Source: Prostheceraeus crozeri (lineage: Eukaryota; Platyhelminthes; Polycladida; Euryleptidae). From it: a stretch of 64,000 nt of DNA. The stretch spans positions 434,001 through 498,000 of the forward strand of contig CAJQUW010000932.1 in assembly GCA_907163375.1 (NCBI GenBank), in the 5' to 3' direction. Shown piece after piece: positions 13,597 through 41,302 of this stretch. The notes under the pieces are model-generated. The model was not told the DNA's origin. It was given only the letters and a program-made list of their open reading frames with translations, and ran no database searches. Both the position numbers and the translations under genes were made by a program. The number at the start of each line of letters is the position of its first letter. Positions within the stretch are counted from its first letter, which is position 1.

Positions 13597-13603
13597 AATT
13601 ATC

Positions 13604-16160: not shown

Positions 16161-16319
16161 ACATCCGTATCATTTCACTCTGTCTTTGAGACGCATAAGT
16201 GAACTGTTGTCTAGCGAATTCTGTATTTGAGGCGTACAAGTGAACTGCTCTCTAGTGAATTCCAAATTTGAGACGTATTATTTGACTGAAGTATCAACCT
16301 TAAACTTGATTTCGTTGAA

Positions 16320-21045: not shown

Positions 21046-21264
21046 TTAACTTAGTATTTTGATGTGATTTCTGTAGATAAACATTGTTGTTTTATGTATC
21101 GCATGAGATTGTTTTTTCCTTGTGAATATGTGTCCACAACTGTACATTCCCCATGTGATGACTTTTCCACTGAAAGACATTTTTCCTATCCCTGTATATT
21201 TCCACCCTTCACGAAGTAAAAAGACTTTTTGTATATAGCAATGTTTTATTTGAAGTGCGCTCAT
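21046..21264 (-). pseudogene. Zinc-finger relic related to the polymerase N-terminus
   Basis: A 72-codon frame contains YSCGHIFTRKK, matching CGHIFTRKR of the first polymerase zinc finger. The similarity is also visible in DNA: minus-strand 21148 to about 21075 aligns with 16588-16660 through words such as TGTGGACACAT, ATCTCA and TGTTT, with one indel that breaks the finger. This looks like a duplicated, decayed copy in inverse orientation. The rest of the frame is not recognisable. Confidence 0.4.
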
Positions 21265-21345
21265 AGTATATATTTCAGTGATGTTGTATAAAAAAGGTCT
21301 ATTGCTTCACATCATGTACATATTTCAATAAATGGTTGTATAAAA
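21264..21345 (-). promoter_or_regulatory. Duplicated TATAAAA-containing segment
   Basis: GTTGTATAAAAAAGG (about 21284) and GTTGTATAAAAGA (about 21332) sit in a roughly 48-bp near-duplication that also shares ATATTTCA. The TATAAAA strings read on the plus strand, so they would drive transcription rightwards, away from the relic and into the pyrimidine-rich block. Function uncertain. Confidence 0.3.
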
Positions 21346-21479
21346 GACTTCACTTTGTTTTCCGAAACACTAAAGTACGAGATTAGTATCATTCACATAG
21401 ATGCACTCTAAAACCATTGGTAAATATTTGATAGCAATAGAGGGTATAGATTGTTTGACGACGGATTATAGAAAATAAA

Positions 21480-24400
21480 TTCAAAACACTTCTCCGCTTG
21501 TTGTTCTATACGCTTCGCGTTTGGTACGGATCTTCTCGTGCGTTTTTTATCTCATTGTTCTTCGTTCTGCGTCATTCGTGGGTCGTTGTGTTCTCTTCCT
21601 CGGCGCGATCTTCTGTTAAGTCTATCGGTTCTCGACCATTTCCCCCCCTGCGGTCTCTGGGTTCTTCGTTGGGCCTAATAGTTCTACTGGCGTTCTTCTC
21701 GTCATCTCTTAGTCTCGTCTTACAGTTCTTTTCGGACTAGTTTAGGTGCGGCAAGTGCGTCTTTGAACTTCTACGCTTCTTTCTTATGGCGGCCGTTTCT
21801 TCTTTCCGACGTTTTTTTTATCCCCTTCGCTGTTCCTCGGTCGTCTAGTGTGCGTTGTCGCTCTCGGCTTCTCGGGATGTTTACTCCGAATTCTAGATCT
21901 TTCTGAACGTCCCTCAGGCTGACGGCGCTGGAGTAGAGCTTCACTTCGCTTCTTCTACGCCTCTTTCTGTTCCGGCGAGATGCGCGTCCTTTCTTCTTTC
22001 TTCGGCAGGGTTCACAGTTCTGACTGGTCTCAGAGGGGGTTAGACCGGGCTAATGCCTTTCTTCTTCGTCCTTTATTTTCTTCTCGGGCGATTTACTCGG
22101 TTCTGACGCCCATACCGCTCTTGGTTGTACCACTATCCTAATGTGAATTCGGGCGTTACGCTCGGGGCCGCTTTTCCTTGGTCTGGCGTTCTTTGTTTTG
22201 CTTCTCCACGTCATCGAGTGCGCGGCTTTCGTCGCTTATCGGTCTTTTTGCGGCGGGTCCGAGCGCTATCGAGGTACATCTCTTCCTTCTCCGGCGCTCT
22301 TTGCGGTCGAGGCGTTCTTGTTGCCCTCGGAAGGCGATCCTCTTCTGGCCTGTCTGCTCGGGGGTTCTTACGGTAACGAGAGTCTTTCCTGGTTCTCTCG
22401 CCGGGATCTTAAGTTGCTTTCTGATTCTCGTACGTGCTTTCTTGAATTTTACTAACTTCTCTGCTTCTCTTCTGTTGCCGTCTCCGATTTCTCGTCATTC
22501 TCGGCAGGCGCGCGTCTTCTACCTACGGATCTGAAGTGGAGTCGCTCCTACGTTCGGGGGCGGGTTCTGTACGTTCTGTAGTCGGGTCTTAACGGCGGGG
22601 CTGCGGACGGTCGCGGCATCTTCTCGTTCTTCTGCTTCACGAGCTTCTGAGGCTAATCTTCTACGTCGTGTGGTCGCCTCTTCTAGCGGGCTCTGTGATG
22701 GATCATCATGGTGTCGGCTTCATCGCGTGGCGGTTTCGTTGGGGTTTCGCGCGGCTGCTCTCTTCGCTTCGGCTAACATCATCTGGCCGTCTTTGGCGGT
22801 TACGCCATCTTAGCGGTGTTAGCGCGTTCTTCGAGGTCGTTCGGTACTCCGAATCTCTCGGTCGCGTCCTCGCCCTTCTGTGGCCTTCACATCTTCTTTG
22901 TTTCGATACTTTGGCCTTCTCCTCTTCTATCTCTTGTCTCTCTTCCCTGTCTTCATGGCGAGGTCGTGGTCGTCTGCGTCTTCTGCGCTTCTCGTGTCTC
23001 GTCTCGCGAAATGTTCGTCTCTTCCTTGGCGGCCGTCGCGTTCGTCTTCTTGCGGATTGTTCCTTGTGTAATCTTCTTAGGGTAGCGCAGGATCTTCCTG
23101 ATGTTTTCTCTTCAGGCGGGGTGATATCTTTCTTGTTCTCGCTTCTCGTGGCGGATACCATGCTTCTTCGATATTACGTCTCGCGATAACATCTTCTTGA
23201 CTTTCCGGATCTTCCTCTGTAATTTTTCTCTTCTATCTTCTTCTGTCTCCGGCCTGAGAGTCGGGTTCGATCTAGACGTGGTGGAAACGTAGGAGACGGT
23301 TTTACTTATTTAGGAAGGACTCTCTCTCGGACGCTCAGTCAGGGACCCTCAACGGTTCTGGGTTTGGTTTCTACCCTACTCTTCTTCTCTTCTTCTTCTC
23401 CATCATCTGGCGTTTTTCTCTCTGTTAAAGGCAGAATCTTCTATTAAGGATCTAGCGAGGCTCTAGAATTCTGGTTTTAGTTTTTTGATTTCTCAGGGGA
23501 CTCGCTTCTGCTCCTGTGCTCGGGGCCTTCTGGTCGTGTAGGTTCTGGCGATCTTCTGACCAATCATCTGGCGAACTTCTAGTTATCTTCTGTCGTCTTC
23601 TTTCTCGGGAGGTCCACGGGGATTCGGCATCCGTCGCTACTTCTAGTTCCCGACTTAGCTCTTGCGGGAGGCTTCTCTCCATTTCTGTTAGCGGTTCTAA
23701 ATCTCTACGATGTTGCGCAGTGCGGTAACTTCTAGTGCTTCTTCTATCTCTAGGGTGTGCGTATCTCCTGTTACTCTAGGTTTCGCTTCTTCGCTTCTTC
23801 TACGCTCTTCTTACGCGGGTTCCTTCTACCACGGAATCTTCTCAATACGCGGTACTCGTCGTGAGGTCTTGCCGTTCTTCGTTCTTATATCATCTCGGAT
23901 CTTCTCTTTAGTCTTCTTATCTTCCATTCTGCAGGGTTGCGCGATCTTCTTCTCTCGAGCGGGTCTTTTCACGGGCCATCTCGTGTGCGGGGGCTCGGTT
24001 CTCCGAGACGACGCCTATCTCTTAACGGTCCTCGGGCCTACGCGATCCATCTGAAAAACATCTTATAGTCGTTTCCTTCATCTCCGGGGTCTTTCATCTC
24101 TTCACTGATAAATCTCTGAACGTTCTTTGGTTCTTCTCTGTCTTATCAAACCTGACTTCCTATTACGTCGTCTTCTACGCTTCTACGTTCCTGAGAGAAT
24201 CTTGCTCTTCTGGCGCTCCGGTTCTCGCTTCTATGGCGACTTCTTGCGCGTTCTTGTGGTCGTATATTCTCGGCATCTTCTCTTAAACGGGTCTGATATA
24301 TTAACACGCGTTCTATTTGTGACTTAATCATACGTCGATCGTTCTTCGCTTCTTGGTCGGCGCTTGTTTCATCTACGATCTTTCTCATTCTACAGGCTCC

Positions 24401-26440
24401 GGGAGGTTCTTCTTCCGCTCGTGTGCTCGACGAATTAGTTCACTCGACGCGGATGCGATCTCCTCCGAGCTGGCTTCCTCGGGGGTGCGGTAGACGGCTT
24501 CTCGTTCTTTCTGACGTTTTTGTTAATTCTGCGGGGACGTTCGCGTCTTTCCTTTCGTCTATACGTAGACGCATTCTATAATCTTCTCTCCTCGTTTCTG
24601 GTATATTCTCTTGCGCGTTCAAACAACTTCTCAGCTGAGCGCTGCTGCGTATCTTAGTAGTTTCCTTTTCGCTACGTGCCTTCTACAATTCTCGTTCTTG
24701 TTGCCATCGAGTCTTGTACGTCTCGGGAGTTGTCGGAACGTCTGACGGCTTTAAACAGTTCTCGTCTGGGCTTCCTCTTAGTAGATTCTCGGTGCGTCCT
24801 TTCCCATACGGCTTAAAGCGCGGGTCGGTCTGAAGCTCCTTGGGCGTCTTGGAAATCTACGGGAGTCATCTTCTTGTTCTCGGCTCGAAAAAGGATCTTG
24901 TGAAGTTTCTTCACATCAATCTTCGAGAACTTTCTGTTCTTTCGTTGCGAAATCTTCTTTTATTTAGTTCGGGGTACGTCTCTACATGTCGGTTGACTGA
25001 CGGTCCGATCTTCATCGTCGGCTGTCTTCGGGGATATGACGAGGGAAGTTCCCATTCTGACTCTTCTTCTTCGTTCTTCTTTCTAGTAGGCGTGTCGTGC
25101 TAGGCGTATTCGGCGATGTGTCCATCTTCTCGCTTCAAGCCTTCGTGTCGGTTTCTTCTGGCGGCGTCGTTTCTGTTCTAACGGGCGTTCTTATTCTGTC
25201 GCTCCTTCTAACGTCTGTTCTCGTTCTCCGTCCGGCGGTCTGTCCATAATGTTTACGGAATCGGGCCGGCGCGGCGGCGGGCGTTCATTTTCTCTGCAAC
25301 ATCTTCAGTTGTAGTTCGTACGTTCTCTGTCCTTCAGCGGTAATCATCTCCGGAGCGTCTTCTGCCTCTTCTCTTCTTGGCGTACGGTGATTTGGAGTAT
25401 GCGTCCGAATTCTCTATCAGTCTTCTTCGCGGCTTCTTATTTTATCCCTTTATTCGGGAAGATGTCTTCTTAATTGCGGTTCTATCGGTCTCTTCTTCGG
25501 TCCCATTATTCCTCGTGTTTTCAGAACGCAGTCCTCTCTGTCGGCGTGGGTTGCGTCTATTCGCGGATACATGTTCATGCCCCTCTTCTCCTACTGCTCG
25601 GCGCTTGTGCGCCTTCTTGGCAGCTTCTCTCGACGGTCTAATTTCTGGGTGGAGCTAACCATCATTCTAGTTGTTTTCGTCTGGTGAACTTCTTCCGGTT
25701 TTTTTTATTTTTTTTATTTTTCCTCTTGCTTCTCTCAAATATCATCGTCGAGTCTCGGACTGAGGAGTGTCGGGGAATCCCAACTTCTTTCACTATGTAA
25801 TTCTGTTCCATTCTTACCTCGCGCTTCTGAGGGGACTTCTCGGGGCATCTGTCAAATATAGACCGGCAGGTCTCCGGTGCGTTCTTCCTTCAAAACATCT
25901 TCTGAAGCGATTTTTGCTAGTCGAGTACTCAGATGGATCGCTGTTTACGCGCTCGGCGTAGAGACCTTCTTTTGGTACACCGAGGTCTTCCGTTTGTTTT
26001 CTGTTTTACGCGATAATCATCTGATTACTCGTCTTCTCCCTCTCGCTTGCGGTCTCTTCTCGTGAACGAGTGCTGCTCTTATTCGTTCCTATGCGAGCTT
26101 CATTTTACTGGTCTCTCTGCGTCCTACGGCGACCGTTCTGCTTCTTACCTATGGTCTTCTCTCTTTTTTCTTCTTCGAAGAGCGGTGCTTTCTTTTCATC
26201 GCGTCGCGGGCGAAGCGTGATGGCCTTTCCCCCCATCTTGGGGCGGGAAAACGTGGGGCGAGGTTCTATACAACTCGTATTTCCTCGCGCTTCTCGGGCC
26301 TGTTCTGAACTTGTGAAGACCATCGTTCTGTTCTTTTGCGCGTTCTTTCTGATGCTGACACCTTCTCGCATGTCTCGGTTCTTCTTAAATCTTTCTGGAA
26401 CGTCGTTGCTACTACGGGTTACGAACTCTTGAGACTCTTG
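21480..26440. other. Five-kb pyrimidine-rich, A-poor block without recognisable genes
   Basis: From about 21485 the plus strand is dominated by T and C, with endlessly varied CTTCT, TTCTCG and TCTTC words, yet has no exact period. ORFs on either strand are biased by composition (Arg/Glu-rich on minus, Ser/Leu/Phe-rich on plus) and none shows a domain. The right edge falls inside a minor capsid gene. Possibilities are a decayed purine-rich coding or repeat array, an unfamiliar satellite, or an assembly or base-calling artefact. Confidence 0.6.
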
Positions 26441-27820
26441 TTTTTACGACTATTCCATATGAAGCGTCTTTATCATGAATGAAATCACGTAAAATGTATT
26501 CTTTTTTCTCACCAACAGAAATAGGTAGAATCAAATCACTTTGAATGTAAAGGTGCTGTTCATGTTTATCAAGTGTCATTGGTGTTTCTATACCAATCGT
26601 ATGCGCAGCAGCAAACACAGTTTGTAGCATTGAAAAACCAAAGAGTTTTTTCAAATTTTTACTCAATTGACATTGAATGTCATCACCCAGTTTCAGAACA
26701 ACGCGTTGATTTTCAATTGAAAACGAAATGTGGTGTGTCTTTACATCATATTTACTTTTCATCACATGCTTCAACTTCTGTTGTATATAAGGATTTACTA
26801 CATGAATGAAGCTTTCAACTGTATGATATAGACGCGGCATTATATTGATAGCAACTTTAGATTCTTCATAAGACTGGTAAATTTTCTTGATGCGATCGCC
26901 ATAGATGTCCACCCACCATTCATCATTAACTGAATCAGCTTTAGTGTGATATTCATGAGAAGCATACACCACACCGCTTCCAATAATAGGTGTATAATGT
27001 CTTACAAAATGACGCAAGGTTGGAGAGAAATAAACTGTAAGTTTGTCATTATATTTCTGAATAACCAACTTATTTTTGTCCGCCATAATTTTCTCTCCAT
27101 ACTTCTTACCCACAGTCTCATTCCATCGTTTTACTAACTCAATAAGTGATAAAGGTTGAACACCACGCTTTTTCAAAATGATGCGTTCTTCGCATTCTAC
27201 AACATCTTCATCAAATATTTTAAATCTATAATGAAATTTGTTGATTCGATTTGAATAAACTTTTTTAACATTTGCAGTAGCAATTGATGTTAGATGTAGT
27301 CCATGACCAAAACCAAGATGTGGATAGAATTCATTATCCAACCTCAGCGTAAGACCTTTAGTAAAAGAATGAAAGCGGAAGGAACTGTCTCCCACTCCAA
27401 TGATAGATAGTAAACTCATAAGCTTTCTGATTTTTATTCTTCATGATGGAAGTATTACCACTGTTGAATGCCTTAATAATTTTCTCATTTCCCAAATGGT
27501 TCATAAGAATCTGATTTTATCTGAATCCATTCATAGTTCCACTTTCCATCTGATGTTAAATTGTATGGGAACTGAAATGCATTATTCATCGTTATTCCAT
27601 CATGGGTGCGAGGAGTCAATATCATTTCTTCCAAATCATTCACATTCTGAATATTGCTATCATAGCAAATACTAGAAACGCCAACCTCCCATTCACCTTC
27701 TAAATGCAGTGGGCGATTTAATTCTACTCGATAGTCTGATGGTTTATTTTTGGGAAATTTATTCATAGAAGCATTACTGGGCAAGTAGATTAGAAACGAG
27801 TCCTTATTTTCACTTTCCAT
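26412..27820 (-). pseudogene. Minor capsid-like protein B, frame-broken and missing its C-terminus
   Basis: The start is probably the ATG at 27820, 32 bases after a TAATGCAAAA box. The first frame (to 27485) has the family signature SFLIYLPSNASMNKFPKN and LEGEWEVGVSSI. Coding then changes frame at least twice between about 27485 and 27400 and continues in the 27419-26412 frame with HTKADSVNDEWWVDIYGD, VVLKLGDD and FGF, ending at DLILPISVGEKKEYILRDF. In the sister gene about 50 more residues follow this point. Here sequence after about 26450 is the pyrimidine-rich block, so the end was replaced. Family role: penton or vertex-type virion component. Confidence 0.7.
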
Positions 27821-27867
27821 ATTATTCACATTGGAAAAATATATTAGCATACTTTTGCATTAACTCT

Positions 27868-29252
27868 TCATTCGAAATGGAGTGTGATACTTGTCACAGC
27901 ATCTTTATGAAAAGGAATCAACGCACCAGCATCGTCATAAATGGCAATATCAATTTGTGGGATGTAGTTTGATTTCAGCTTTGTATAATGCACTTTCTTG
28001 AAAGTATGCTCAGATAAAATACTGCAGCTTTTTGGCTGGTATGGTATCATTGCTAGCAATGGAGCTTCAACATCTCCCACACGTACATCTTCACCAATAT
28101 TGGAATATATCTGAAAATAGTTAATACGACGCGATAGCGACATGTCTGCGCTAGCTTTGGTTACAGTACCACTTTTAAAGATATTTGATCAAAACCCAAA
28201 ATGTCCATTAGAGTTTTATCCATAATTAGTTCAATACCTTTTCCACTTATAGTGAGAGACAAAGTACCTTCTTTTCAGAAAATGAAATATGTTGCTCATT
28301 AATCACTTCATTTAAATAATCTACAACCAATTTAACCGAAGTAATAATGCGAGGCATCAACACTCTTGTTTCATGTAAGATACCACCTAAGGCTCTACAC
28401 ACTTTCTGTATAAAGATACGGTCCATTCTGTATCAAATTGATTTGACCTTTCACATGGCAAATGTTGCATATCAGATTTCCATGAACAGCTGCAGAACGA
28501 TGTCGTAAGAACTGATGAAAATCTTTTGAACAAACTAATACTAGATCATCATCATTTAATTTACTTATTGCAATATGATTAGATGATTTGATATAAGTCA
28601 ATGTTGCCACTTGTTTACCATCAACTCGAAGGAGATAATTAAATTTCTTCAATAATGTTTCAGGAGTCATGTTTGTCTTTCTTGGCTTAATCACAATCTT
28701 CTTCACCAACGTCTTCTCATTTCTTGGAATAAGATCTACATAATAAGCTTCCTCTCGATATATTAACTGTTTATGACCACTTATGTGGTAATTAACGTTA
28801 AAATTATCATAGCTTGTTAAGGCGCTAGCGAGGTAACCTAAATCATTTCTTAAACTTGGACTTAAACCAACAATCCAATCTTTCTCAACTACATGATGTA
28901 CATAAGTATAATCATCATTGTGCGGAGTAAATTGGACAATATGTTTACACGCTTTATTCAAGAAATCATATATAAACTTTTTACATGATAAGAGATCTTT
29001 CTTTGGCCACTGTGGAATGTATACTCGGCACCCCTTTTCACATTGATAAGCAGCTGTACGCCTCATATTAATAGTCATCACCTCATGATCAAAAGTATAG
29101 ACACAGTTGCTATAAACAAGTTGAGTGACACCCACTTCCCAATTTCCATTTAGCTGTTGTGCATGATCAATGGGAGTAGAAAAGAGTGCGGCTCGATTAC
29201 TAGTAAATCTCTTTGTAGCCGCATTGCTAAGCAAAATATGATAAAACGACAT
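27868..29252 (-). pseudogene. Minor capsid-like protein A, with several frame breaks
   Basis: The start is taken as the ATG at 29252 (MSFYHILLSN), 21 bases after a TATGCAAAG box; the upstream in-frame ATG at 29273 lies inside that box region. The first frame runs to 28395 and contains the LNGNWEVGVTQLVY signature shared with gene B. At least three frame changes occur between 28397 and 28150. The last frame (28143-27868) holds the conserved ending INYFQIYSNIGEDVRVGD and PQIDIAIYDDAG...TLHFE. A and B are tandem paralogues, both about 450 residues when whole, matching the large minor capsid proteins of Polintons. Confidence 0.75.
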
Positions 29253-29287
29253 TTTTATATTGCTAATCTGCAACTTTGCATAACATC

Positions 29288-29602
29288 ATGAAGACTTGGA
29301 TTTTGGACTCTCTACAATATATCAGAGTTGATCGTGATGGAAACGTACATTTCAAAAATTCTCATGGTCATACATCAAGAGGAATTACATTAACATGGCG
29401 ACAATTTGTCAACCTCAATGATATCATGAGGGATTTGGAATATTTTGAAACATTAAGATTCATCTCCTTGGGTGATCAAGTTTGGCTTCAACATTACAGA
29501 AATGAAATTCAAATCTACCATTCTCATTCCGCAAACTGTTTCTCATTTCGCAAATACAATTGGGAGAACTCATCGCTCCATCATGACATTTATTCGTCGT
29601 GA
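29288..29602 (+). CDS. PC4-like protein 1 (predicted single-stranded DNA-binding coactivator fold)
   Basis: The ATG at 29288 (MKTWILDSLQYIRV) is preferred over an upstream TTG. 104 residues. The core, YIRVDRDGNVHFKN followed by RGITLTWRQFVNLNDIMRDL, parallels the PC4/Sub1 fold: beta strands, then the signature K/RGISLxxEQWxxLKxxIxDI leading into the long helix. A second half (VWLQHYRNEIQIYHSH) repeats a beta-like pattern. PC4 proteins bind ssDNA and help the basal transcription machinery. The gene diverges from minor capsid gene A with only 35 bases between the ATGs, and is followed by a paralogue and a TBP-like gene. Homology is by eye only. Confidence 0.55.
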   Translation: MKTWILDSLQYIRVDRDGNVHFKNSHGHTSRGITLTWRQFVNLNDIMRDLEYFETLRFISLGDQVWLQHYRNEIQIYHSHSANCFSFRKYNWENSSLHHDIYSS

Positions 29603-29652
29603 GTTCATCGCCCTACTATGCAAATCTTAATCAGACATGACTACCACGCACC

Positions 29653-29937
29653 ATGAGTTGGAAATTAGATTCCCTACAACGTATTGAAACGGATCATGAT
29701 CGAAACGTCTATTTCAAAGATTCAACTGGAAATGTGAGAAGAGAGTTTGCTTTATCTTATCGTCATTTTCAATCTCTACATCATATCATGAAGGACTTGA
29801 AATACTTCTATATGAAAAGACATTCACGTATTGGAAATCGCATCTGGCTGCGCGTCAACAATCGGCGAATTCAACTCTATCATTCCCAACTTCATACTAA
29901 CTTCACATTTCATCAAGGTAGTTGGGGAAAAGTATAA
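29653..29937 (+). CDS. PC4-like protein 2 (tandem paralogue)
   Basis: 94 residues, starting MSWKLDSLQRIETD, 27 bases after a TATGCAAAT box at 29617-29625. It shares with its left neighbour the pattern WxLDSLQxIxxDxxxNVxFK, a helix entry (FQSLHHIMKDLKYF), and a C-terminal IWLR...IQLYHSQ strand. The two proteins are clear paralogues and probably arose by tandem duplication. Its last codons overlap the TATAAAAG box of the TBP-like gene. Predicted nucleic-acid binding; a homodimer or heterodimer with protein 1 would be typical of PC4 folds, but this is inference. Confidence 0.55.
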   Translation: MSWKLDSLQRIETDHDRNVYFKDSTGNVRREFALSYRHFQSLHHIMKDLKYFYMKRHSRIGNRIWLRVNNRRIQLYHSQLHTNFTFHQGSWGKV

Positions 29938-29940
29938 AAG
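29931..29940 (+). promoter_or_regulatory. TATA box of the TBP-like gene
   Basis: GTATAAAAGG lies 36 bases before the ATG at 29976, inside the end of the preceding gene. It is the best canonical metazoan TATA box in the element. Confidence 0.55.
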
Positions 29941-29975
29941 GAAGGTACATCGCTCAATTTACTCATTCTTTCATC

Positions 29976-30521
29976 ATGAAGCGTCATCGCTACACCATCG
30001 TCAACATTCTCCGTCGCTTCAGACTCTACACCAAAATCGATCTCACAACATTACACCAACAGCTTCCAAACAGCAAGTATTACCCGGGCCGACCTCAAAT
30101 GTTAGTGGTGAAGATGAACAATTCACGGAATCTTCAACTCTTCCCAAATGGGACTGTACAGATTCTCGGCGCCCTTTCTCATTCATCGGCGCAGTCAATG
30201 CGCTTAGAGCTACAGAGACTACTACGTCGGATATGGAAGAGGGAGAGGTGTGTGATGTCGAATCTGACTGTGGACAATATGGTGATCTCTACTCAATTGA
30301 GTGACAGTCTATCATTTTTGAAGATTCGTACCAGCAGTTACAATTTGTGTTATGAACCCGAACTTTTTCCTGCAGCTCTCATTAGTTGTTGGTTACCTGT
30401 GCATGTGGCAATCTTTCATAATAGTAAAGTGATCATTACTGGACTAAAATCTCATGTACAAGCAAATGTGATCCTAGACTATCTCATTGAGTATGTACGT
30501 ACCCAGCGGATTGTAAAATAA
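29976..30521 (+). CDS. TATA-binding-protein-like protein (181 aa)
   Basis: The ATG at 29976 gives 181 residues, the size of the TBP core. Two direct repeats are visible. Repeat 1 has LQLFPNGTVQILGALSHSSA (55-71) aligning with the TBP [20 protein letters not shown] segment. Repeat 2 has VDNMVIS (99-105), SYNLCYEPELFPAALI (121-136) and IFHNSKVIITGLKS (146-159), matching TBP IQNMV, SSYEPELFPGLI and IFVSGKVVLTGAK. Three of the four DNA-intercalating Phe positions are kept (56, 131, 147); the first of repeat 1 is lost near 40-42. TBP nucleates transcription by bending promoter DNA. It follows two PC4-like genes, suggesting an element-encoded transcription module. Confidence 0.85.
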   Translation: MKRHRYTIVNILRRFRLYTKIDLTTLHQQLPNSKYYPGRPQMLVVKMNNSRNLQLFPNGTVQILGALSHSSAQSMRLELQRLLRRIWKRERCVMSNLTVDNMVISTQLSDSLSFLKIRTSSYNLCYEPELFPAALISCWLPVHVAIFHNSKVIITGLKSHVQANVILDYLIEYVRTQRIVK

Positions 30522-30547
30522 AAAACAATTTTTCCAACATGATGTTT

Positions 30548-31009
30548 TTATTTCAAATCATGATAGAACTTACAAATCATTTTTTCATTAGAGGATGGAT
30601 TACATGAAAAGTTTTGAATAACAGATGCAAATCGAGATACATGTAAACGTTTTAAGATGAAGTACAGTACAAAAGCACCACACGTTGATGAAAGTGGATG
30701 TTGTAGTATGCGTTCATTTCGCTGATATTGACGCGTATGTTTTCTCAACCACTGCTGTGTTGGTATATTTGGAGGTTGAGCAAGAGAGTCAAATAGTTCA
30801 CCACGTCGGTCTTCTCCAATAAAGATCGCTTTCCAATGCTCACCGCCTAAATTCTGCGAATGAGTGTTTAGCACAATAAAGATGGGATAGTGATTTACTG
30901 CAGGTGGTAAGGTATCGAGTGAATAGACATTATCGAAAGCTTTCAACGTCGCTTCGTCTGCATTACGCTGCACTTTAGTCTTAATATCGTCAGCAGTCAA
31001 CCAACTCAT
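30548..31009 (-). CDS. PRO: Adenovirus/Ulp1-type cysteine protease
   Basis: 153 residues from ATG 31009, whose A is shared with the TAA that closes the major capsid locus. The catalytic set is visible in order: His in GEHWKAIFI (about residue 59), Asp in GELFDSLAQ (about 75), and Gln-Cys in LQHPLSSTCGAFVLYF (Cys about 110). Length and spacing fit the Polinton/adenovirus maturation protease of the C48/C5 group, which processes capsid precursors at Gly-Gly-like sites; possible substrates next door contain QRGG and QKGG. The 3' end meets the TBP-like gene tail to tail, 26 bases apart. Intact. Confidence 0.9.
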   Translation of the reverse strand: MSWLTADDIKTKVQRNADEATLKAFDNVYSLDTLPPAVNHYPIFIVLNTHSQNLGGEHWKAIFIGEDRRGELFDSLAQPPNIPTQQWLRKHTRQYQRNERILQHPLSSTCGAFVLYFILKRLHVSRFASVIQNFSCNPSSNEKMICKFYHDLK

Positions 31010-32273
31010 TAACGATTATACTGAAGAATCACGTCACGATACTTTGTAATTTCAATATTTGAATCGAAGACTGCATAAATTAATACATTGATCGTCTCAG
31101 GTAGTCAAATCCAAACGAATATTATGAGGCACGTTCGCTTGACGATAGGGTGCACTAATATCGCTGTCAGCAGTCAAATCAAATGCATAAATAGTATATC
31201 CACTCTTAAACTCTTTCATAGTCAGTCCGTTGGTGTCATCCGTATTGTAAAAAGCCAAAGACATCCATAAAATCAACATAACTGCGCATAAATTGATCCG
31301 AAGCAAAATCTGGTTTGTAGGGTGGACCAGGATGACTCACACCATTTACACGTAAAGCAATTTCACTTAACTGATTGTGTTTAAAATTGAAAGGATTCTT
31401 CTTTATATTACCATTAAATGCATCATTTTCAACCATTGCCACCATGAGGAGCTTCGGTGCTTCCGATGGAAAGAGGCCATCTTTCATGAAACTCTTTTGA
31501 TCTTTCGGAATTGTAAAGGTGAGAAGCTTTGTATGCTGAACGGGGTAAATGGCATTTTGGCGGTTAAGGCCTTCAGCATGCCCTCTAATGACACTTGGAT
31601 TCGGTACTACTCGACGAATGTAAAGTGCAATATCTTCCACATGAATTCTAAAATTGTCAACTTTAGCAAATGCATTCAGCGCAAATTCAGGCTTATTCAA
31701 TGTCAGCTTGAGTCGCATGCTGGTATTACAGAGTAAAAACTTTGACTGTCTAAAGAAGTCTAAATTCAGCGGACCATATAGCTGACATACTTTACTATCT
31801 TTAATCATAGCAGATCGCTTTACAAAGCCACTGTTTGTTTCAACATCAAATTTTCCTGCTTCATCTCTATACCATCCCATGGCTTCCATATGACTTTTTT
31901 GTGCTGCTGGATGAAACTGTGATACATGATTGAAATATGATTTATAGGGATAATCGCTTTGACCACCTTCCACCTGCTGCTCTCCAATCGTTAGAGAAAC
32001 ATCGCGAAGTAATGTAGTCAATGGTAAATTGTTCAGTCCAACTTTATGTGTATCGTCAATAGCAGTTCCATCTGCTTGCTGAATTCTAAACCTCAAATCA
32101 AGCATCGCATAACTCAAATCTATGTAGTCATCACTACCACCAGGAATAACAAATTCAATGGGACCAGCATTCTCAGCTGTTCGAGGATGATAATCTACAA
32201 TACTTGAACTAAGAATATCTGTCTGTATGGCTTGTTGATCGAACAAACAAAAACCGGAAGTTTTACACTCCAT
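31009..32273 (-). pseudogene. MCP: Double-jelly-roll major capsid protein, two C-terminal frame breaks
   Basis: The ATG at 32273 lies two bases after the preceding gene. The 345-codon frame carries hallmark segments of Polinton major capsids: IEFVIPGGSDDYIDLSYAML near residue 40, VGLNNLPLTTLLRDVSLTI, YPYKSYFNHV and GWYRDEAG, then the second jelly roll. An extra T in a T5 run near 31254 ends the main frame at 31236. Coding resumes in a second frame (31306-31097) and shifts again near 31100, reaching a TAA at 31009-31011. The breaks lie in the last quarter, so the protein is probably non-functional unless these are sequencing errors. It would form the hexameric capsomers. Confidence 0.9.
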
Positions 32274-32275
32274 GA

Positions 32276-32731
32276 TTAGAAGTTATAGCAGCGTCGTCGT
32301 TTAGCGCCTGATGAATGATTAGAGCCTCTACGACGTTTGCGTGAATGCCTTTTGACTGAAGATCGCACCTTACCAGCTCCGCGATGTTTCCTCCTTCCTT
32401 TATTCATTCGTTTAGGTGATTTCTTTCCTTGAGTAACACCAGCAAAGGTCTGCTTCAATGTTTTTAAACCGCGTTCCTTCCCACGATTCAACAAACTGCT
32501 CTTAAAACTTCTACCTCTGGAAAGATCACTAGCAACATCACCAGCAAAGCCAACGGCATTACTTAAAACATTTCGTTTTAAAGATCTACCGACATTGGAT
32601 ATGAGAGGTGCTACAACAGATTTCAGTGCACCAAGTATGCTACCTCCACGTTGGCGGCGAGCGCCGATGTAAATTTGTCCTCCGCCACTTACATAGGAGG
32701 GTCGTGAATAAAATGAGGCAGTTGGATTCAT
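32276..32731 (-). CDS. Basic virion core/penton-interior protein, pX/pVI-like
   Basis: 151 residues. The start MNPTASFYSRPSY is followed by SGGGQIYIGARRQRGGSILG (about 15-34), a Gly-Gly-rich segment with potential protease sites, then a hydrophobic amphipathic helix (ALKSVVAPLISNVG). The last 50 residues are extremely rich in Arg, Lys and His and end RRRCYNF. This layout resembles adenovirus core peptide X and protein VI and their Polinton counterparts: DNA condensation plus membrane lysis after cleavage. A CATGCAAAG box lies 30 bases upstream, and it may be co-transcribed with the capsid gene 2 bases downstream. The same gene begins at 63604 in copy 2. Confidence 0.7.
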   Translation of the reverse strand: MNPTASFYSRPSYVSGGGQIYIGARRQRGGSILGALKSVVAPLISNVGRSLKRNVLSNAVGFAGDVASDLSRGRSFKSSLLNRGKERGLKTLKQTFAGVTQGKKSPKRMNKGRRKHRGAGKVRSSVKRHSRKRRRGSNHSSGAKRRRCYNF

Positions 32732-32772
32732 AGCTCAAACCCTAAACATTGTTAGTTACAACTTTGCATGAA

Positions 32773-33861
32773 TCACTGTCGATCACTTAGATGAAAGATG
32801 TCGGCACGACGCATCCAAGAGTTCATACTTGAAGGATAACCAGTCCATTTAACAAGACACCATTCTTCACCTTGCCATTTTTTACATCGAATGATTTTCT
32901 CTACCAAATATGTTTCACTTTCAGTGACTACCTCAATCTCATCGCGGTAAAAGCTACCCTCAATTTCTTCATTATCGTAATCTTTCAACTTGTAGGTGGT
33001 CGGAGAGTCTTTTTGATTAATCCTTGATACTGTAAATACCTCCTCTGTCCAATTCGGGAGGTACCCTTTAGCAAAAACACTTTTCACTTTTGAGATACGA
33101 ACTTTATCGCCAATTTTCACATCACTTTTCACATGAGTGCGTTTACGTTGGAATGATTCGCGCACTTTATCTACATTGTCAGCATTTACATCTACTGGTC
33201 TGAGTCCAATAGAACGATGGATAGAGTGATTGTAGGCATGGAGTGTATCTTGTAGAACCTTTGTCCAATTTTGTGTCAAGTTGGCAGTAAAATGTCGCCA
33301 CAAGCGATTTTTTAATGTGCGATTAAAACGTTCAACGAGTGCAGCTTTATAAGCACTCTTTACACTAAACAACTCAATGTCATGCCTCTCAAATAATCTT
33401 CGCACATGCTGATTTTCAAACTCTTTTCCTTGATCACTCTGAATTCTTTTTGGAATCCGACCTTCTCGAAAAATTGTTTGGAATGCTTTTGCTACTCCTT
33501 TCCCTTCTTTAGTTTTTAAAGGTTGAGCCCACGCATAACGCGAGAAAATATCAATGACGGTTAAAATAAAATTATTGCCCGAGTTATGTTTTGAAATGGA
33601 GGCGACATCGCACAAATCTGCTTGCCACTGTTCATCGATGTCATGAACAATATAATGGCGGGTGCGGTACTTCTTTTTCGCTTGTTTGTGGAGTGTATAG
33701 GTAGCCTGACCCTTTAACCATCGTTTCACTTGTGATTGTGGAAGACCACTCGCTTTTGATAATTTCTTGATAGATGCAAATCCTGCCGGATGTTTTACAT
33801 CATAATAGATTGACTTCAAACGTTCAGTCGATGACGACTGACTCTTTTTCCTCCTTCTCAT
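32773..33861 (-). CDS. INT: Retroviral-type integrase with C-terminal chromodomain
   Basis: A longer frame starts at 33993, but the Met at 33861 (MRRRKKSQSSS) avoids overlap with most of the Cys-rich gene and gives 362 residues. A helix-turn-helix-like start (IKKLSKASGLPQSQVKRWL) precedes the rve catalytic core: Asp in QADLCDV, Asp in SDQGKEFE, Glu in ALVERFNRTLK (D,D-35-E). After an SH3-like barrel (KIGDKVRISKV) the last 45 residues form a chromodomain (LVEKIIRCKKWQGEEWCLVK, then WTGYPSSMNSW). It inserts the linear DNA and makes the 6-bp duplication; the chromodomain may choose chromatin targets. Intact. Confidence 0.92.
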   Translation of the reverse strand: MRRRKKSQSSSTERLKSIYYDVKHPAGFASIKKLSKASGLPQSQVKRWLKGQATYTLHKQAKKKYRTRHYIVHDIDEQWQADLCDVASISKHNSGNNFILTVIDIFSRYAWAQPLKTKEGKGVAKAFQTIFREGRIPKRIQSDQGKEFENQHVRRLFERHDIELFSVKSAYKAALVERFNRTLKNRLWRHFTANLTQNWTKVLQDTLHAYNHSIHRSIGLRPVDVNADNVDKVRESFQRKRTHVKSDVKIGDKVRISKVKSVFAKGYLPNWTEEVFTVSRINQKDSPTTYKLKDYDNEEIEGSFYRDEIEVVTESETYLVEKIIRCKKWQGEEWCLVKWTGYPSSMNSWMRRADIFHLSDRQ

Positions 33862-34039
33862 CTTTTTGTTTTCTTGCCTTTCTACATTTACAACAACTAC
33901 AGCATTTAGCTTTAGCGGTTTTGCGATCGTGTTCACATTGCTTAGGGGTTTCATTATGAGAGCTGGCGCAGCAAGTGCAAGTGACAACGACATTCACCTC
34001 TGGCGGCTCATTACATGGCAAGCAACACATCTGCTTCAT
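33824..34039 (-). CDS. Small Cys-rich protein (71 aa)
   Basis: Starts MKQMCCLPCNEPPE and has clusters CC..C, CTCC, C..H and CCSCCKC, followed by a Lys/Glu-rich tail. The spacing suggests zinc binding, but no named domain fits. Its end overlaps the integrase start by 38 bases in a different frame, and its ATG follows the stop of the 34041 gene almost directly. The same frame is intact in copy 2 (62309-62524) with few changes, which supports it being real. Confidence 0.55.
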   Translation of the reverse strand: MKQMCCLPCNEPPEVNVVVTCTCCASSHNETPKQCEHDRKTAKAKCCSCCKCRKARKQKDEKEEKESVVID

Positions 34040-34040
34040 A

Positions 34041-34733
34041 TTAATAGTCTGAGAACATGTATTTTCTGGGAGGAGCTGTTTTACGTTTTCCTTTTACTAG
34101 TTTTAGTGGTGATGTAGATCTACGTCGAGTTCTTCCTCTTGTTTGCTTAGTGAGTGTGGGAGGGGATGTAGCAGGTGACGACTTAAACCAATTTGTTGGC
34201 ATTTTCATCGTCTGAAGCATTGGAGCAGTAGCCACTGTTGAATCAAGTTCTTTCAATGTCTCATTATTCAAAGCAAATTTTGGTACATTATGCTTTTTCA
34301 ATAGTGTAAGAAAGTATGACCAACCAGGTGGAACATAGCCCTGACGGCGCTTTCTACGTGTCGCATACTGAATCAAGTCTTCATAACGTGAAGCATCAAT
34401 CACTTTATTTTCATCTGTAATAATTTCTCCTCTATCATTTACATTGAGATGGGGTTCAATACTATTGAAAAGAGATATGGCATGTGCGCGAGATGCTAAA
34501 GGTGTAGCAGTCGATACAGAGTCACGCATCTTATTCTTCAAGTTTTTTAATTGCTCAACAGTTTCCGATTGTAATAATACAGCACGATGTGGATCTTTGA
34601 TGTGAACATTTTGCTGATAATCTATTTCTTTCCTATACATTTGATTTGCAAGAGGTTGCTTTACTTGCTGCATGGCAGTCAATTGTACATATTCATCCTG
34701 AGGAATAACAATCATGCGAGAATAAGAACTCAT
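34041..34733 (-). CDS. Conserved Maverick protein downstream of ATPase (230 aa)
   Basis: The ATG at 34733 overlaps the ATPase stop (ATGA). The N-terminus SRMIVIPQDEYVQL and the central RQGYVPPGWSYFLTLLKKH are reminiscent of a protein that often sits beside the packaging ATPase in Polintons. The C-terminal 50 residues are basic, Ser/Thr/Pro-rich and probably disordered. A role in virion assembly or packaging is inferred from neighbourhood. The copy-2 gene is broken by two single-base indels, the copy-1 gene is intact. Confidence 0.6.
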   Translation of the reverse strand: MSSYSRMIVIPQDEYVQLTAMQQVKQPLANQMYRKEIDYQQNVHIKDPHRAVLLQSETVEQLKNLKNKMRDSVSTATPLASRAHAISLFNSIEPHLNVNDRGEIITDENKVIDASRYEDLIQYATRRKRRQGYVPPGWSYFLTLLKKHNVPKFALNNETLKELDSTVATAPMLQTMKMPTNWFKSSPATSPPTLTKQTRGRTRRRSTSPLKLVKGKRKTAPPRKYMFSDY

Positions 34734-35347
34734 AGTTTGTAGATAATCATGGGAGTTTCCAAAATATCACTTCGAAATCTAAATTCTTCCGGACACTCTT
34801 GCGTAAAGTCAATGAATAAGTAACCGTATGGTTTTTCAGTAGCTGCTTGAAAAATTTCAATTAAGGCTTTTGATCCTCTGGGTGCAACTTGTCGCGCTAA
34901 AATTTCAAATTGACTTTTATCTCGCGGATTCTTGAAAATAGCATAATAGTGTGTATTCAGGTTTCGTGTACGAGCTTCTTTTCCATCAGGAAACAAATTT
35001 TGTGTGATATAGATGATAAAGCACCTTTTATGATGTGCTGCACGAGTGAACATATCTGTAACATCTTTTGAATTCTTACTTTCTTTTAATAAATCATCCA
35101 ATACAACAACATCATTAGACTGAAGTTTATCCACTGGAATAATTCCTTCATGTCGAATAAAGTTGCGACTTTGCAATTCCTGAAACAGCGACGGTTGATA
35201 AATACCATAACACCAAATCACTCGATTGATAGGTTCCTTAAACAACTCCCTTCTTTTATCCAATAAATTCAGCGTGAAAACAGTTTTACCTGCATGAGAT
35301 GGACCTGATACAGTCAGAACTTTATCACATTGAAGTCTGAAATCCAT
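34730..35347 (-). CDS. ATP: Packaging ATPase, FtsK/HerA A32-like
   Basis: The Met at 35347 (MDFRLQCDKVLTVSG) is preferred to 35395 because the extra 16 residues overlap the preceding gene and a TATGCAAAT box lies 21 bases upstream. 205 residues. Walker A GPSHAGKT comes near residue 16 and Walker B DVVVLDDLL about 65 residues on. Downstream DMFTRAAHHKRCFIIYITQN and the NTHYYAIFKNPRDKSQF arginine-finger region match the viral packaging ATPase family that translocates DNA into capsids. Intact in this copy; in copy 2 it has a stop at codon 6. Confidence 0.92.
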   Translation of the reverse strand: MDFRLQCDKVLTVSGPSHAGKTVFTLNLLDKRRELFKEPINRVIWCYGIYQPSLFQELQSRNFIRHEGIIPVDKLQSNDVVVLDDLLKESKNSKDVTDMFTRAAHHKRCFIIYITQNLFPDGKEARTRNLNTHYYAIFKNPRDKSQFEILARQVAPRGSKALIEIFQAATEKPYGYLFIDFTQECPEEFRFRSDILETPMIIYKL

Positions 35348-35378
35348 TTTATTACTTTGAGACTCAACATTTGCATAA

Positions 35379-35729
35379 TTAACGCTTAGAGCCAAAGATA
35401 TTACCCAATAGGTTGCCCACGGCAGGAGCTATCATTGGAAGTATTGCTGAAAGGAAACCGCCCTTTTGTGTTAGAGTTTTCCTCTTTCTTTGAAGGGTGA
35501 CTTTAGGATTGGAGATGAAACGCAATTTCGTAGCATATCGCTTAAGTAACTTTCGTTGTTTTGGCGCTAATTTCTTCGTCCTCAACTTCCTCACATGAGA
35601 AATAATTTCACAAATGAATTTATCGTTAGCATGTCGTATAGCATTGTATCGCTGATTTGCTTTCATTCGTCGGAGAGCTTGAATGGCTGAAGAAAACTTT
35701 GAAGACTTTTGACTTTTACGTTTCGCCAT
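35379..35729 (-). CDS. Basic Polinton virion protein with QKGGFL motif (116 aa)
   Basis: Very Lys/Arg-rich throughout residues 1-90, then TLTQKGGFLSAILPMIAPAV, a Gly-Gly site followed by a hydrophobic amphipathic helix and a GSKR tail. This pairing of a basic body with KGGFL plus a hydrophobic end is common in Polinton and adintovirus genomes and recalls adenovirus minor core proteins; the Gly-Gly is a likely maturation-protease site. A TATGCAAAT box lies 38 bases before the ATG. The two copies differ little, supporting selection or youth. Confidence 0.65.
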   Translation of the reverse strand: MAKRKSQKSSKFSSAIQALRRMKANQRYNAIRHANDKFICEIISHVRKLRTKKLAPKQRKLLKRYATKLRFISNPKVTLQRKRKTLTQKGGFLSAILPMIAPAVGNLLGNIFGSKR

Positions 35730-35780
35730 TTTCCGTGTTAGTCTTTGCTAAAACCTATCTTTACCACATTTGCATAGGTA

Positions 35781-36104
35781 CTAACTATTGCGACATAAGT
35801 GACACTCGAAATGAGCAATATCACAGTGGTTACATTGGCAAAGTTGAATGCAATTACGTATGAAACAGCGTTGACAAAAAGCATGCTTACATCTCTTGAA
35901 GATGCGCTTTTCATTTCCATCCTTTCGCTTACATACATCGCAACACATAGTTTCACCGTTACTGATGTCTATAGCAAGTCTTTTTGAAGATATGAATTTG
36001 CTAGCCTTTTCTAAATAATAGACGCATGTACAGAAGGAATATACTTCGAGAGTGAGCAGACATAGCTCGAAAACCAGTTGTGCTACAATCAAGTACCACT
36101 GCAT
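35781..36104 (-). CDS. Membrane-anchored RING-like zinc protein (107 aa)
   Basis: Residues 1-30 form a hydrophobic anchor (WYLIVAQLVFELCLLTLEVY). After a short basic linker, MCCDVCKRK...FKRCKHAFCQRC...CQCNHC...FECHLC supplies the paired Cys/His ligands of a RING-type cross-brace, though the last pairs are irregular. RING proteins usually act as ubiquitin ligases; anchored viral ones often alter host membrane proteins. That role here is inference. The start is placed at MQWYLIV because it is the shared start in copy 2 (60229). Confidence 0.6.
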   Translation of the reverse strand: MQWYLIVAQLVFELCLLTLEVYSFCTCVYYLEKASKFISSKRLAIDISNGETMCCDVCKRKDGNEKRIFKRCKHAFCQRCFIRNCIQLCQCNHCDIAHFECHLCRNS

Positions 36105-36106
36105 TT

Positions 36107-36517
36107 TCAATTTTTCTTTATGGAAATTTGAATGTGAATATCTGAAATCGCTTCAATCACTAGACTGCTACCATGATGGTTAAATGCGTTAAGACGTTCA
36201 GCAATTTTTATCATATGTCTTTTAAAAAATTCTTGGGGGTGATCTACCACTTCCATTGAATAAGAAGCAAAATGGAAAGAGCGACTTTCCACCTCTTCCT
36301 TTCCAAAATGACTAAACTTAATTTTCGCAACTAATCGCGCCATGATAATGCTATCAGAGAATGTATTCATTAACTCTAGAAATAGAGTGCTAGCATCATC
36401 GACCACTGCTTCGATGTCGGTCTCATCTTTATGAAAATTTATCACATAATCTTGAACAGCTCCTTTTAAACTTTGCCTATGAAAATGTAATGTTCCGCAG
36501 TCGTTTGAGAAAGACAT
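36107..36517 (-). CDS. Stand-alone paralogue of the polymerase N-terminal domain (136 aa)
   Basis: MSFSNDCGTLHFHRQS starts a 136-residue protein. Its second half (VESRSFHFASYSMEVVD, FNHHGSSLVIEAISDIHI) lines up with the polymerase segment VERLEFHIPSSPATEVVD, FNERDSGLVFDGIESALF, with equal spacing and no gaps over about 60 residues. The part before also fits (MARLVAKIKFSHF against MKALIYLKIKYVKI). In polymerases of this type the segment precedes the exonuclease and has no known catalytic motif. A replication accessory or structural role is inferred. TATGCAATG lies 22 bases upstream. Confidence 0.6.
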   Translation of the reverse strand: MSFSNDCGTLHFHRQSLKGAVQDYVINFHKDETDIEAVVDDASTLFLELMNTFSDSIIMARLVAKIKFSHFGKEEVESRSFHFASYSMEVVDHPQEFFKRHMIKIAERLNAFNHHGSSLVIEAISDIHIQISIKKN

Positions 36518-36601
36518 GATCGCCCTTTATCTAACCCATCCATTGCATAAAAACAACTCTTCTCATAGTAACATTTATTGAATAACTGTAACAAGCATGC
36601 A

Positions 36602-37132
36602 TTATAAATCAATGGTTTGAAACAGATAAAATAGATACAGCTGGTAACTATCATACAGCGAGCAATGATAACCATACAGGACTTTGGCAGTGTTGAGGTA
36701 AGGAGGAAAGAAGCATTGGTTATAAACGTAGCTACTACAACGAATAGACAAAATAGGAACACACAAATCCTTAAAACGTTTCGTGACTTCATGATAATGT
36801 TGATTCACTCTACTATCCCAAGGTGGGAGCAAAATATCATCAATGATTAGATTGGGAAATACTTTCCTCTCCTTACCAGGATTATTACAAAAGATGCGTA
36901 TAACATTGAAAGCAGCTAACCATCGTTTAAAGTCAATAAGAAGAGCACTCTCACAAGAAAAGCCATAGTCTTGCAAATATTTCAGATTAAGTCCATGAAT
37001 GTGTTTTCTTGCCCATTGATCAACATTGGGATCGCAGTTGGCATGTTGATGATAGACACTAACAATCTGATATGTCCAATTGTTCATAGCAATAGCACTG
37101 AGCTCCTGTACAGGTTCACCCTCACAATCCAT
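36602..37132 (-). CDS. Possible DnaQ-like (DEDD) nuclease-fold protein (176 aa)
   Basis: The start MDCEGEPVQELSAIAM resembles the exo I motif (D-x-E-G plus x-I-x-E/Q-L-S-A-I) of DEDD exonucleases. A HIHGLNLKYLQDYGF block followed by LLIDFKRWLAAF recalls the exo II region of such proteins in insect and nudivirus-like genomes. Later acidic residues (NLIIDDILLPPWD) and HYHEVTKRF could supply the remaining ligands. The fold is my inference and the catalytic set is not certain. It is intact here; in copy 2 one CGA is TGA. A second overlapping frame on the same strand is not called. Confidence 0.4.
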   Translation of the reverse strand: MDCEGEPVQELSAIAMNNWTYQIVSVYHQHANCDPNVDQWARKHIHGLNLKYLQDYGFSCESALLIDFKRWLAAFNVIRIFCNNPGKERKVFPNLIIDDILLPPWDSRVNQHYHEVTKRFKDLCVPILSIRCSSYVYNQCFFPPYLNTAKVLYGYHCSLYDSYQLYLFYLFQTIDL

Positions 37133-37183
37133 AAAAATGATGATAGAAGCCTAAAACGGAAATTACACATCTAAGGAAACGTT

Positions 37184-37309
37184 CTATAACATATTACAAA
37201 ATGAAGAATTACATCGATGCTTTTCACGACAAAATACACAAATGATATGATGGCAACGAAGAAGTAAAATGTATCTAATAAGGCCACGTCTACGACACTC
37301 AAAGCACAT
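37184..37309 (-). CDS. Mini RING-like zinc protein (41 aa)
   Basis: From the Met at 37309 the frame encodes MCFECRRRG...LRCHHIICVFCREKHRCNSSFC, with eight Cys/His ligands spaced like a compact RING finger. A longer frame to 37432 would overlap the upstream gene. It follows that gene closely and is unchanged in copy 2 (59007-59132). At 41 residues it may be a complete microprotein or the end of a longer spliced one. Confidence 0.45.
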   Translation of the reverse strand: MCFECRRRGLIRYILLLRCHHIICVFCREKHRCNSSFCNML

Positions 37310-37343
37310 AAGCGAATTGTCATAGGGTAGAGTTAGGAAAGGA

Positions 37344-38119
37344 CTAGTAATTCTCCTTCTTTGATTTGCGTTTTGATGCAGCATTCTTCTCCGACTTGCG
37401 CTTCGTACCACTGCTGTTAAGGATTTGATCAATTATGTCGTCCACGTTGGGCGGTTTTGGAATATATAGGATGGATTCCATATGCATGGAGAGAGAGGCT
37501 ATTTTATTATCCTTGTGCCGACCATAATATAGCCCATTCACTTTGAAAAGGATATCCCAAGTACCTTCTCCGACCTCATCACATCTGATGGGTATTGATT
37601 GATCTCCATCCTTTTTATAATAACTACACCAATGTGATACCGGTAGGCAAATGTGATTACCACCCCAAATCGTTCTATAGGGAGTATCCTTGGCATCTCT
37701 CGCCTTCCACTCTTGAGCAAGAGGAGTAGGAATGTCCATATTTAATGTCACGTACTCCTCAATGATATCAAGTTGGCAGCGAATGTACGGACTCACGGGG
37801 ATCAGTATGTAGTCCCCATACTGATTGTGCATTATCTTGACATCCGTGGAAGGGAGCATTCCCGTTTGGAGTACTACGCTATGATCGTCATAACGCAAGA
37901 CTTTTTTAAATTTACGCTGTAGCGGTGTAGGATTATGTACCTTGGTTGTTTCTTCCACTGGCCTCAGTTGTAGATGATCTGACCGTAGCGAACCTTGTAA
38001 CGTTTGACCGCCATTTTGTCCTACTAGTGCAGCAGATGGAGTAGATGCCTGAAAATGAAAAAAGATTGTATTAAGTTTACGTTCAAGGGAGGAGAGGGAG
38101 GGAAGTAGCGACTTACCAT
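37344..38119 (-). CDS. Maverick hypothetical protein with intron right after the ATG (235 aa)
   Basis: Exon 1 is only the ATG (38119-38117), followed by a 68-bp intron (38116-38049; GTAAGTCG donor, TTTTCAG acceptor). Exon 2 (38048-37344) encodes 234 residues. An unspliced frame begins downstream at a GTG (37958), but spliced translation gives a natural Ala-Ser/Tyr-Thr start. The middle has a Pro/Trp-containing domain (ICLPVSHWCSYYKK, GEGTWDILFKVNGLYYGR) and the C-terminus is a Lys/Arg/Ser nuclear-type tail. Being the first gene from the right end, with CCAAT and TATA boxes, it is probably early. No family recognised. Confidence 0.65.
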
Positions 38120-38216
38120 TTTAGTTGGATAATAGAACAGGGAACTAGAGAGAGAAAATGTGCGTCCGTCACTCGTATGATTCAACGATGGAATGATTCT
38201 CACTGTGGAAGGCTCG

Positions 38217-38275
38217 CTATTTATAAAGAAATGCTTGATTCTCATTGGATGATGATCCTCATTGGACAATAACAT
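38217..38275 (-). promoter_or_regulatory. CCAAT/TATA promoter of the 37344-38119 gene
   Basis: On the minus strand two CCAAT boxes (around 38267 and 38250) precede TTTATAAATAGCG (about 38228-38216), roughly 100 bases before the ATG. The same layout occurs in copy 2, where the TATA box reads TATATAAAT. Confidence 0.6.
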
Positions 38276-38284
38276 CAAGCTGAT

Positions 38285-41296: not shown

Positions 41297-41302
41297 CATG
41301 GT

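Follow-up and report, generated by a model that had tools for sequence, protein, structure and literature searches.

A TATA-binding protein-like gene in a Maverick/Polinton element of the polyclad flatworm Prostheceraeus crozeri

The TBP gene and the element that carries it

Does a Maverick/Polinton element encode a TATA-binding protein (TBP) of its own, and for what would the element use it? The question is raised by an ORF in the window analysed here, a stretch of 64,000 nucleotides from Prostheceraeus crozeri (contig CAJQUW010000932.1, positions 434,001 to 498,000), where a first-pass annotation had placed a Maverick-encoded TBP-like protein of 181 residues at 29976-30521. Both the coordinates and the size are correct, and the gene (29976..30521) lies on the plus strand. 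In Pfam, the 181-aa ORF matched PF00352 (TBP) with an E value of 9.9e-21 and 73.8 bits, against a curated cut-off of 22.9 bits, in two stretches that correspond to repeat 1 (approximately residues 6-85) and repeat 2 (approximately residues 94-176). The best TBP match in the PDB by single-sequence search was 2z8u (E 4.2e-13). The AlphaFold2 (AF2) model of the ORF (pLDDT 95.6, pTM 0.86) has the saddle fold and consists of the TBP core alone without an added domain, and 44 of 44 Foldseek-PDB matches with E<=0.001 were TBP or TBP-containing chains. Identities to TBP chains by Foldseek and VIA were 19-26% among the matches listed. The annotation had proposed a profile search and a structure prediction against TBP; these gave a TBP match and a saddle, and the Pfam profile, predicted fold and structure comparison agree on TBP.

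The annotation had also described two internal repeats carrying YEPELFPAALI. The two repeats are present, but the motif is found in repeat 2 only, and its equivalent in repeat 1 is YYPGRPQMLVV. Three of the four intercalating Phe, as had been counted, are there (F56, F131 and F147), and Pro40 occupies the place of yeast F99. Based on sequence and model, the 181-aa ORF is a TATA-binding protein; considering that one of the four intercalating Phe (F99) is replaced by Pro, it is classified by its sequence as a member of the TBP superfamily rather than a canonical TBP.

The element extends over 11767..41296 (29,530 bp, termini AGTAGTAAG...CTTACTACT) and is flanked by the target-site duplication CATGGT, whose left copy (11761..11766) is identical in its six bases to the right copy outside the right terminus (41297..41302). 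The TIR arms (11767-12750 and 41296-40317) are 97.4% identical over 985 columns; a 485-bp subrepeat array at 38275-41114, in the right terminal repeat, has six copies versus about two on the left. Together with the long TIRs and the 6-bp duplication, an rve integrase was found as a Maverick/Polinton feature; the integrase ORF carries a chromodomain (32773..33993, minus strand; PF00665 5.3e-11 and PF00385 1.3e-5, both above cut-off). On the same strand, an adenain/Ulp1-like cysteine protease lies at 30548..31009 (PF02902 E 0.0012; its 19.2 bits fall short of the 20.7-bit cut-off), and a basic core protein resembling adenovirus protein X at 35379..35729 (PF05829 E 0.0025, below cut-off). The ORF at 34730..35395 (minus strand; PF04665 E 0.021, below cut-off) is presumably an A32/FtsK-like packaging ATPase. 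We take the ORF at 16476..20048 (plus strand, 1190 aa) to be DNA polymerase B from its exonuclease and polymerase motifs; its 3' frame is apparently lost, and it gave no Pfam PolB match at E<=1 and no PDB polymerase match. The putative major capsid protein (31236..32273, minus strand), a label we assume, has 345 aa here and about 425 aa in most relatives; a 425-aa relative that is 99% identical (P0065) was among its 190 matches (120 listed), and the ORF is shortened early, apparently through frame disruption. A putative penton protein, likewise our assumption, lies at 26412..27850 (minus strand), apparently as two ORFs in different frames, and a 292-aa ORF at 28395..29273 (minus strand), with what we take to be a penton-like N terminus, is transcribed away from the TBP side. 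As such, the TBP ORF sits among Polinton-type genes between intact element ends, and it is Maverick-encoded as had been claimed. The chromodomain integrase, terminal repeats and 6-bp duplication are shared with the Maverick/Polinton and adintovirus gene set, to which the polymerase motifs, the weak protease and ATPase matches and the putative capsid genes would also correspond. The Maverick/Polinton features named in a figure legend of PMC10328495 are pPolB, MCP, mCP, int, pro, atp and TIRs, and TBP is absent from that legend.

Upstream of TBP is a tandem pair of paralogues on the plus strand, a 108-aa ORF (29276..29602) and, directly upstream of TBP, a 94-aa ORF (29653..29937; 2 homologues found), which share 42% identity. 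By eye, we had suspected a PC4-like cofactor, a suspicion that found no support: neither ORF gave anything above cut-off in Pfam or at E<=0.1 in PHROGs, a profile search against the PDB returned five weak unrelated rows (best E 0.041) and a single-sequence search none. The AF2 model of ORF 29653 reached a pLDDT of only 50. Between 20400 and 26400, the element has no recognised genes, and five ORFs there gave no Pfam match; 22001-26000 is strongly T-rich (AT skew -0.52 and -0.43). Among minus-strand neighbours, the ATPase and ORF 34041 overlap by 4 nt (34730-34733), and gaps of 2 nt separate ORF 36107 from the first ATG of ORF 35781 (36105-36106) and ORF 32276 from the capsid gene (32274-32275); such closely abutting or overlapping neighbours suggest bicistronic units.

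While the polymerase, penton and capsid frames look disrupted (by eye, and for the capsid also by comparison with its relative), the TBP frame is intact in the same copy. The first copy of the element seems to be decaying, so TBP may not act here. The same Maverick is present a second time, in inverted orientation, at 56716-64000 (95% identity over 7 kb); this copy leaves the window before its TBP region. Elsewhere in the window, an AT-rich fragment (754-3994, 26% GC) looks like a different Polinton-like element, in which ORF 754-1428 matched Pox_A32 at 2.6e-5 (above cut-off), and ORFs at 5542-9062 resemble, by eye, a non-LTR retrotransposon.

Relatives and residues of the element TBP

Among 97 candidates we found 61 homologues of the element TBP, all 61 of which carry a precomputed Pfam TBP domain, and dozens of these TBP relatives are present in environmental sequence data. 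No relatives of the TBP family were found in viral-contig or phage collections and no capsid-protein relatives in the viral-contig collection; the genome-contig collection held one weak capsid match (L001, 30%). The tree contained 58 family members, with four short ones omitted, and six reference TBPs: three eukaryotic, one archaeal and two from viral contigs (L002 and L003) that came from a scan with cellular TBPs and were used as references only. The family formed one side of a 100/100 branch, with the six references on the other, and the element TBP thereby groups apart from the three eukaryotic TBPs. The phylogeny that the annotation had called for separates the family from all six references, a small set without TRF/TLF and host TBP. 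Four family members are 21-23% identical to Arabidopsis TBP.

Of the 15 homologue contigs longer than 5 kb, three, each the longest for its TBP homologue, have exactly the same size as a contig with a capsid homologue (P0003/P0173, 5702 bases; P0013/P0144, 7106; P0021/P0178, 20463), where the capsid side comprised the 120 matches listed of 190. Jittered sizes reproduced at least three matches in 266 of 20,000 sets when all 61 rows were used, and in 2 of 20,000 when the rows were restricted to the 15 longer than 5 kb. The equal contig sizes link the TBP family, indirectly, to capsid-bearing elements of this type. Considering the 61 homologues, their single clade apart from the references and the three size-matched contigs, the presence of TBP in the element is, as judged from these sequences, no one-off insertion. 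Neither of the two outcomes that the annotation had named as refuting its reading, a missing TBP match and saddle or a single host insertion, was thus obtained.

To see what the family conserves, residues were counted over 62 proteins, with yeast numbering after a table in PMC12529657. Repeat 2 is nearly invariant across these proteins. The DNA-contacting Asn (N10 and N101 in the element TBP) is kept in 50 of the 50 proteins with a letter at the repeat 1 position and in 62 of 62 in repeat 2. Phe is retained at F116 (62/62), F190 (61/62) and F207 (62/62), as are the two glutamates of YEPELFP, E127 (61/62) and E129 (62/62), which we take to be the TFIIB-contact glutamates of the C lobe. Repeat 1 is where the element family departs from cellular and archaeal TBP (PF00352; 19-26% identity among the chains listed): the position of yeast F99 is Pro in 58 of 59, that of V122 is Gln throughout (62 of 62), and that of T124 is Leu (56), Met (4) or Phe (2) and never Thr, whereas the reference TBPs keep Phe at 99 and Thr at 124 in 6 of 6. 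The V71 position holds Met (38), His (11), Leu (5) or Val (1). With three of the four intercalating Phe left, the protein may bend DNA less or bind it less tightly. For the element TBP we infer both binding to DNA and contact with TFIIB, with support from its predicted fold and its residues.

Promoter motifs of the TBP gene and other element genes

A TATA box of the TBP gene (TATAAAA, 29933..29939, plus strand) lies 43 nt before the ATG, and an initiator-like TCATTC (29963..29968, plus strand) has its A at -11, 32 nt downstream of the first TATA-box T. A 32-nt spacing between TATA box and initiator fits metazoan core promoters. When 14 usable N-extended homologues were read through in frame, nine had Ile-Lys at 13-14 codons and His at 3-4 codons upstream of the start, the places equivalent to the two motifs, as would be expected if TATA box and initiator were conserved. 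Both motifs are apparently conserved in relatives, in a comparison of protein letters only that would also allow a real coding extension. ORF 13604 likewise has TATAAA, at -46.

Across the element, only three of 21 gene starts have TATAAA within 70 nt, in one case at -7, and 12 of the 21 have neither TATAAA nor ATGCAA within 70 nt. ATGCAA itself occurs at -29 to -46 before six of the 21 gene starts and at -10 before a seventh. On the minus strand, TATGCAAA begins 30 nt ahead of the first ATG in ORF 28395 (29275..29282), 30 nt before the first ATPase ATG (35370..35377) and 47 nt before the core-protein ATG (35769..35776); on the plus strand, it begins 36 nt before the ATG of ORF 29653 (29617..29624). 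Also on the minus strand, CATGCAAA (32763..32770) begins 39 nt upstream of the start codon of ORF 32276, itself located ahead of the capsid gene, and TATGCAAT (36542..36549), which reads CATGCAAT in copy 2, begins 32 nt before the ATG of ORF 36107. Four ATGCAA boxes are comparable with copy 2, which retains ATGCAA in each, once with the preceding base changed; copy 2 keeps TATGCAAA of 35370..35377 unchanged within a stretch that differs at 9 of 104 columns.

The ATGCAAA motif was originally spotted by eye in the same sequences that were used for the statistics. The exact 7-mers ATGCAAA and TATGCAA each occur in 5 of 21 upstream windows; in 47 of 5,000 random-ATG sets, the top 7-mer did at least as well. 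Allowing a single mismatch, the most widely shared 8-mers (ATGCAAAT, GCAAATTT and TTCAAAGT) were found in 7 windows, which was equalled in 25 of 600 sets, and TATGCAAA in 6 windows, with a null best of at least 6 in 191 of 600 sets. Within 26401-38000, ATGCAAA occurs 8 times against 4.7 expected, which is not exceptional (30 of 300 random sequences were as high). TATGCAAA occurs 12 times in the window against 4.0 expected, with 0 of 100 shuffles as high; six of the 12 are outside the proposed sites and two are the copy-2 versions of proposed sites. A start 30 nt after the box would leave some leaders near zero, which counts against a simple TATA-like role. With these mixed statistics, (T)ATGCAAA is a possible alternative promoter box before several genes, with modest support.

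We can propose only tentatively, and with more doubt than confidence, a two-stage system in which the TATAAA of early genes (TBP and ORF 13604) is read by host TBP and the G/C-containing (T)ATGCAAA box, which starts approximately 30-47 nt before several virion-side start codons, is read by the element TBP. If so, a TBP with Gln at V122 and a residue other than Thr at T124 would read (T)ATGCAAA, in parallel to, yet independent of, the TATT late-promoter system of herpesviruses.

Proposed role of the element TBP and known systems

As a whole, the data are probably best explained by a functional, long-established TBP of the Polinton lineage that directs host TFIIB and RNA polymerase II to element genes. 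Behind this reading are the observed TBP homology, predicted fold, element location, family spread, conserved residues and TATA/initiator motifs. The host would transcribe the TBP gene early, from the gene's own TATA-plus-initiator promoter. We infer that the element TBP recognises element promoters, to which it would bind with a canonical C-terminal saddle half and an N-terminal half that reads DNA differently. Through the kept glutamates it would recruit host TFIIB and hence host RNA polymerase II, so that transcription would be directed to the element's own genes, probably late ones. A Pfam scan of 37 of the longer and more complete ORFs, of which 34 fall entirely within the element, turned up no TFIIB match.

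It is unlikely that the protein is instead an ordinary TBP, which would bind canonical TATA boxes with the same sequence preference and supplement host TBP or autoregulate its own promoter. The retained repeat 2, both Asn and three Phe, and the TATA box of its own gene, would fit such a role, but the DNA-face changes of repeat 1 (yeast 99, 122 and 124) are shared by all or nearly all family members, the six references all keep Phe 99 and Thr 124, and TATAAA is found near so few gene starts (3/21 within 70 nt, one at -7). An interference factor, which would occupy host promoters or tie up TFIIB and so lower host transcription, seems quite improbable. Putative TFIIB contacts kept beside an altered DNA face would suit a dominant-negative role; however, three Phe and both Asn are almost completely conserved, which indicates specific DNA binding, and the model is a TBP core only, with no added domain. 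We give very little credence to an architectural protein bending DNA for replication or packaging at the element ends: TBPs bend DNA and the element has long terminal repeats, but the kept glutamates (61 and 62 of 62) would then lack evident use. Least credible of all is a single insertion of a host TBP or TBP-related gene into this copy, for which we found no supporting point and which is contradicted by the element setting (one uninterrupted ORF embedded between element genes) and by a widespread family of 61 further homologues that a 100/100 branch separates from three eukaryotic TBPs in the tree without TRF/TLF and of which four members are just 21-23% identical to Arabidopsis TBP.

A TBP that would serve element genes can be compared with those of DNA viruses. 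The annotation had likened it to giant DNA viruses (Nucleocytoviricota), and the likeness holds for a virus-encoded TBP fold; the best named BFVD match was Heterosigma akashiwo virus 01 (E 1.5e-10). It seems not to extend to TFIIB. According to the text available of PMC7221094, two acidic residues of the C lobe are TFIIB contacts, viral TBPs often diverge at TFIIB-contact residues, their TFIIA-side N-lobe residues are not conserved, and almost all such viruses with TBP had a TFIIB-like protein, whereas the element TBP keeps the putative TFIIB glutamates and the scanned ORFs gave no TFIIB match. The herpesvirus TBP mimics of late promoters (KSHV ORF24 and HCMV UL87) are similar in that the DNA-face positions V122 and T124 are changed and in the use of host Pol II, which for the element would be an assumption. 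KSHV ORF24 has Asn at exactly these positions (N485 and N487; PMC12529657, Table 1), so that two viral lineages have changed one and the same TBP strand, each to other residues. In contrast, ORF24 keeps F99 (as F456), where the element TBP has Pro, carries additional domains at both its N and C termini, and works as one of a set of six proteins. The architecture of these mimics, a large protein with a Pol II-binding N-terminal domain and a DNA-contacting C-terminal domain, is absent from the 181-aa TBP core of the element. As described in the available parts of PMC12529657 and PMC7498053, late promoters transcribed by host Pol II can have a TBP-like protein of their own, which sets a precedent. 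Mirusviruses also have a DNA-virus TBP, in 59% of genomes (PMC10132985), but they are a separate virus group with HK97-fold capsid proteins (PMC10675990).

In the open literature searched, we found no report of TBP in a Polinton or Maverick; the adintovirus paper and the polinton-supergroup review were beyond that search, and a mention there is possible. The available text of PMC12220804, PMC13037468, PMC11464507, PMC12085832, PMC11071308, PMC11244446 and PMC10120064 reports no Polinton TBP, and that of PMC10675990 describes TBP genes as sporadic in elements with mirusvirus-like capsid genes and not in its Polinton-like ones. The accessible portions of this literature gave no description of the timing of gene expression in such small elements. 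Many eukaryotic DNA viruses are considered to descend from Polintons or to be closely related to them (PMC7805220). With a dedicated TBP that retains the contacts to host TFIIB, an element would have a minimal means, a single protein, of switching promoters, and the evolution of TBP specificity could be studied in a natural TBP whose N-terminal DNA face has been rebuilt; the 62-sequence family makes both questions testable. Taken all together, a Maverick/Polinton with its own altered TBP, and with relatives in environmental data, suggests that such elements redirect the host transcription machinery to their own genes.
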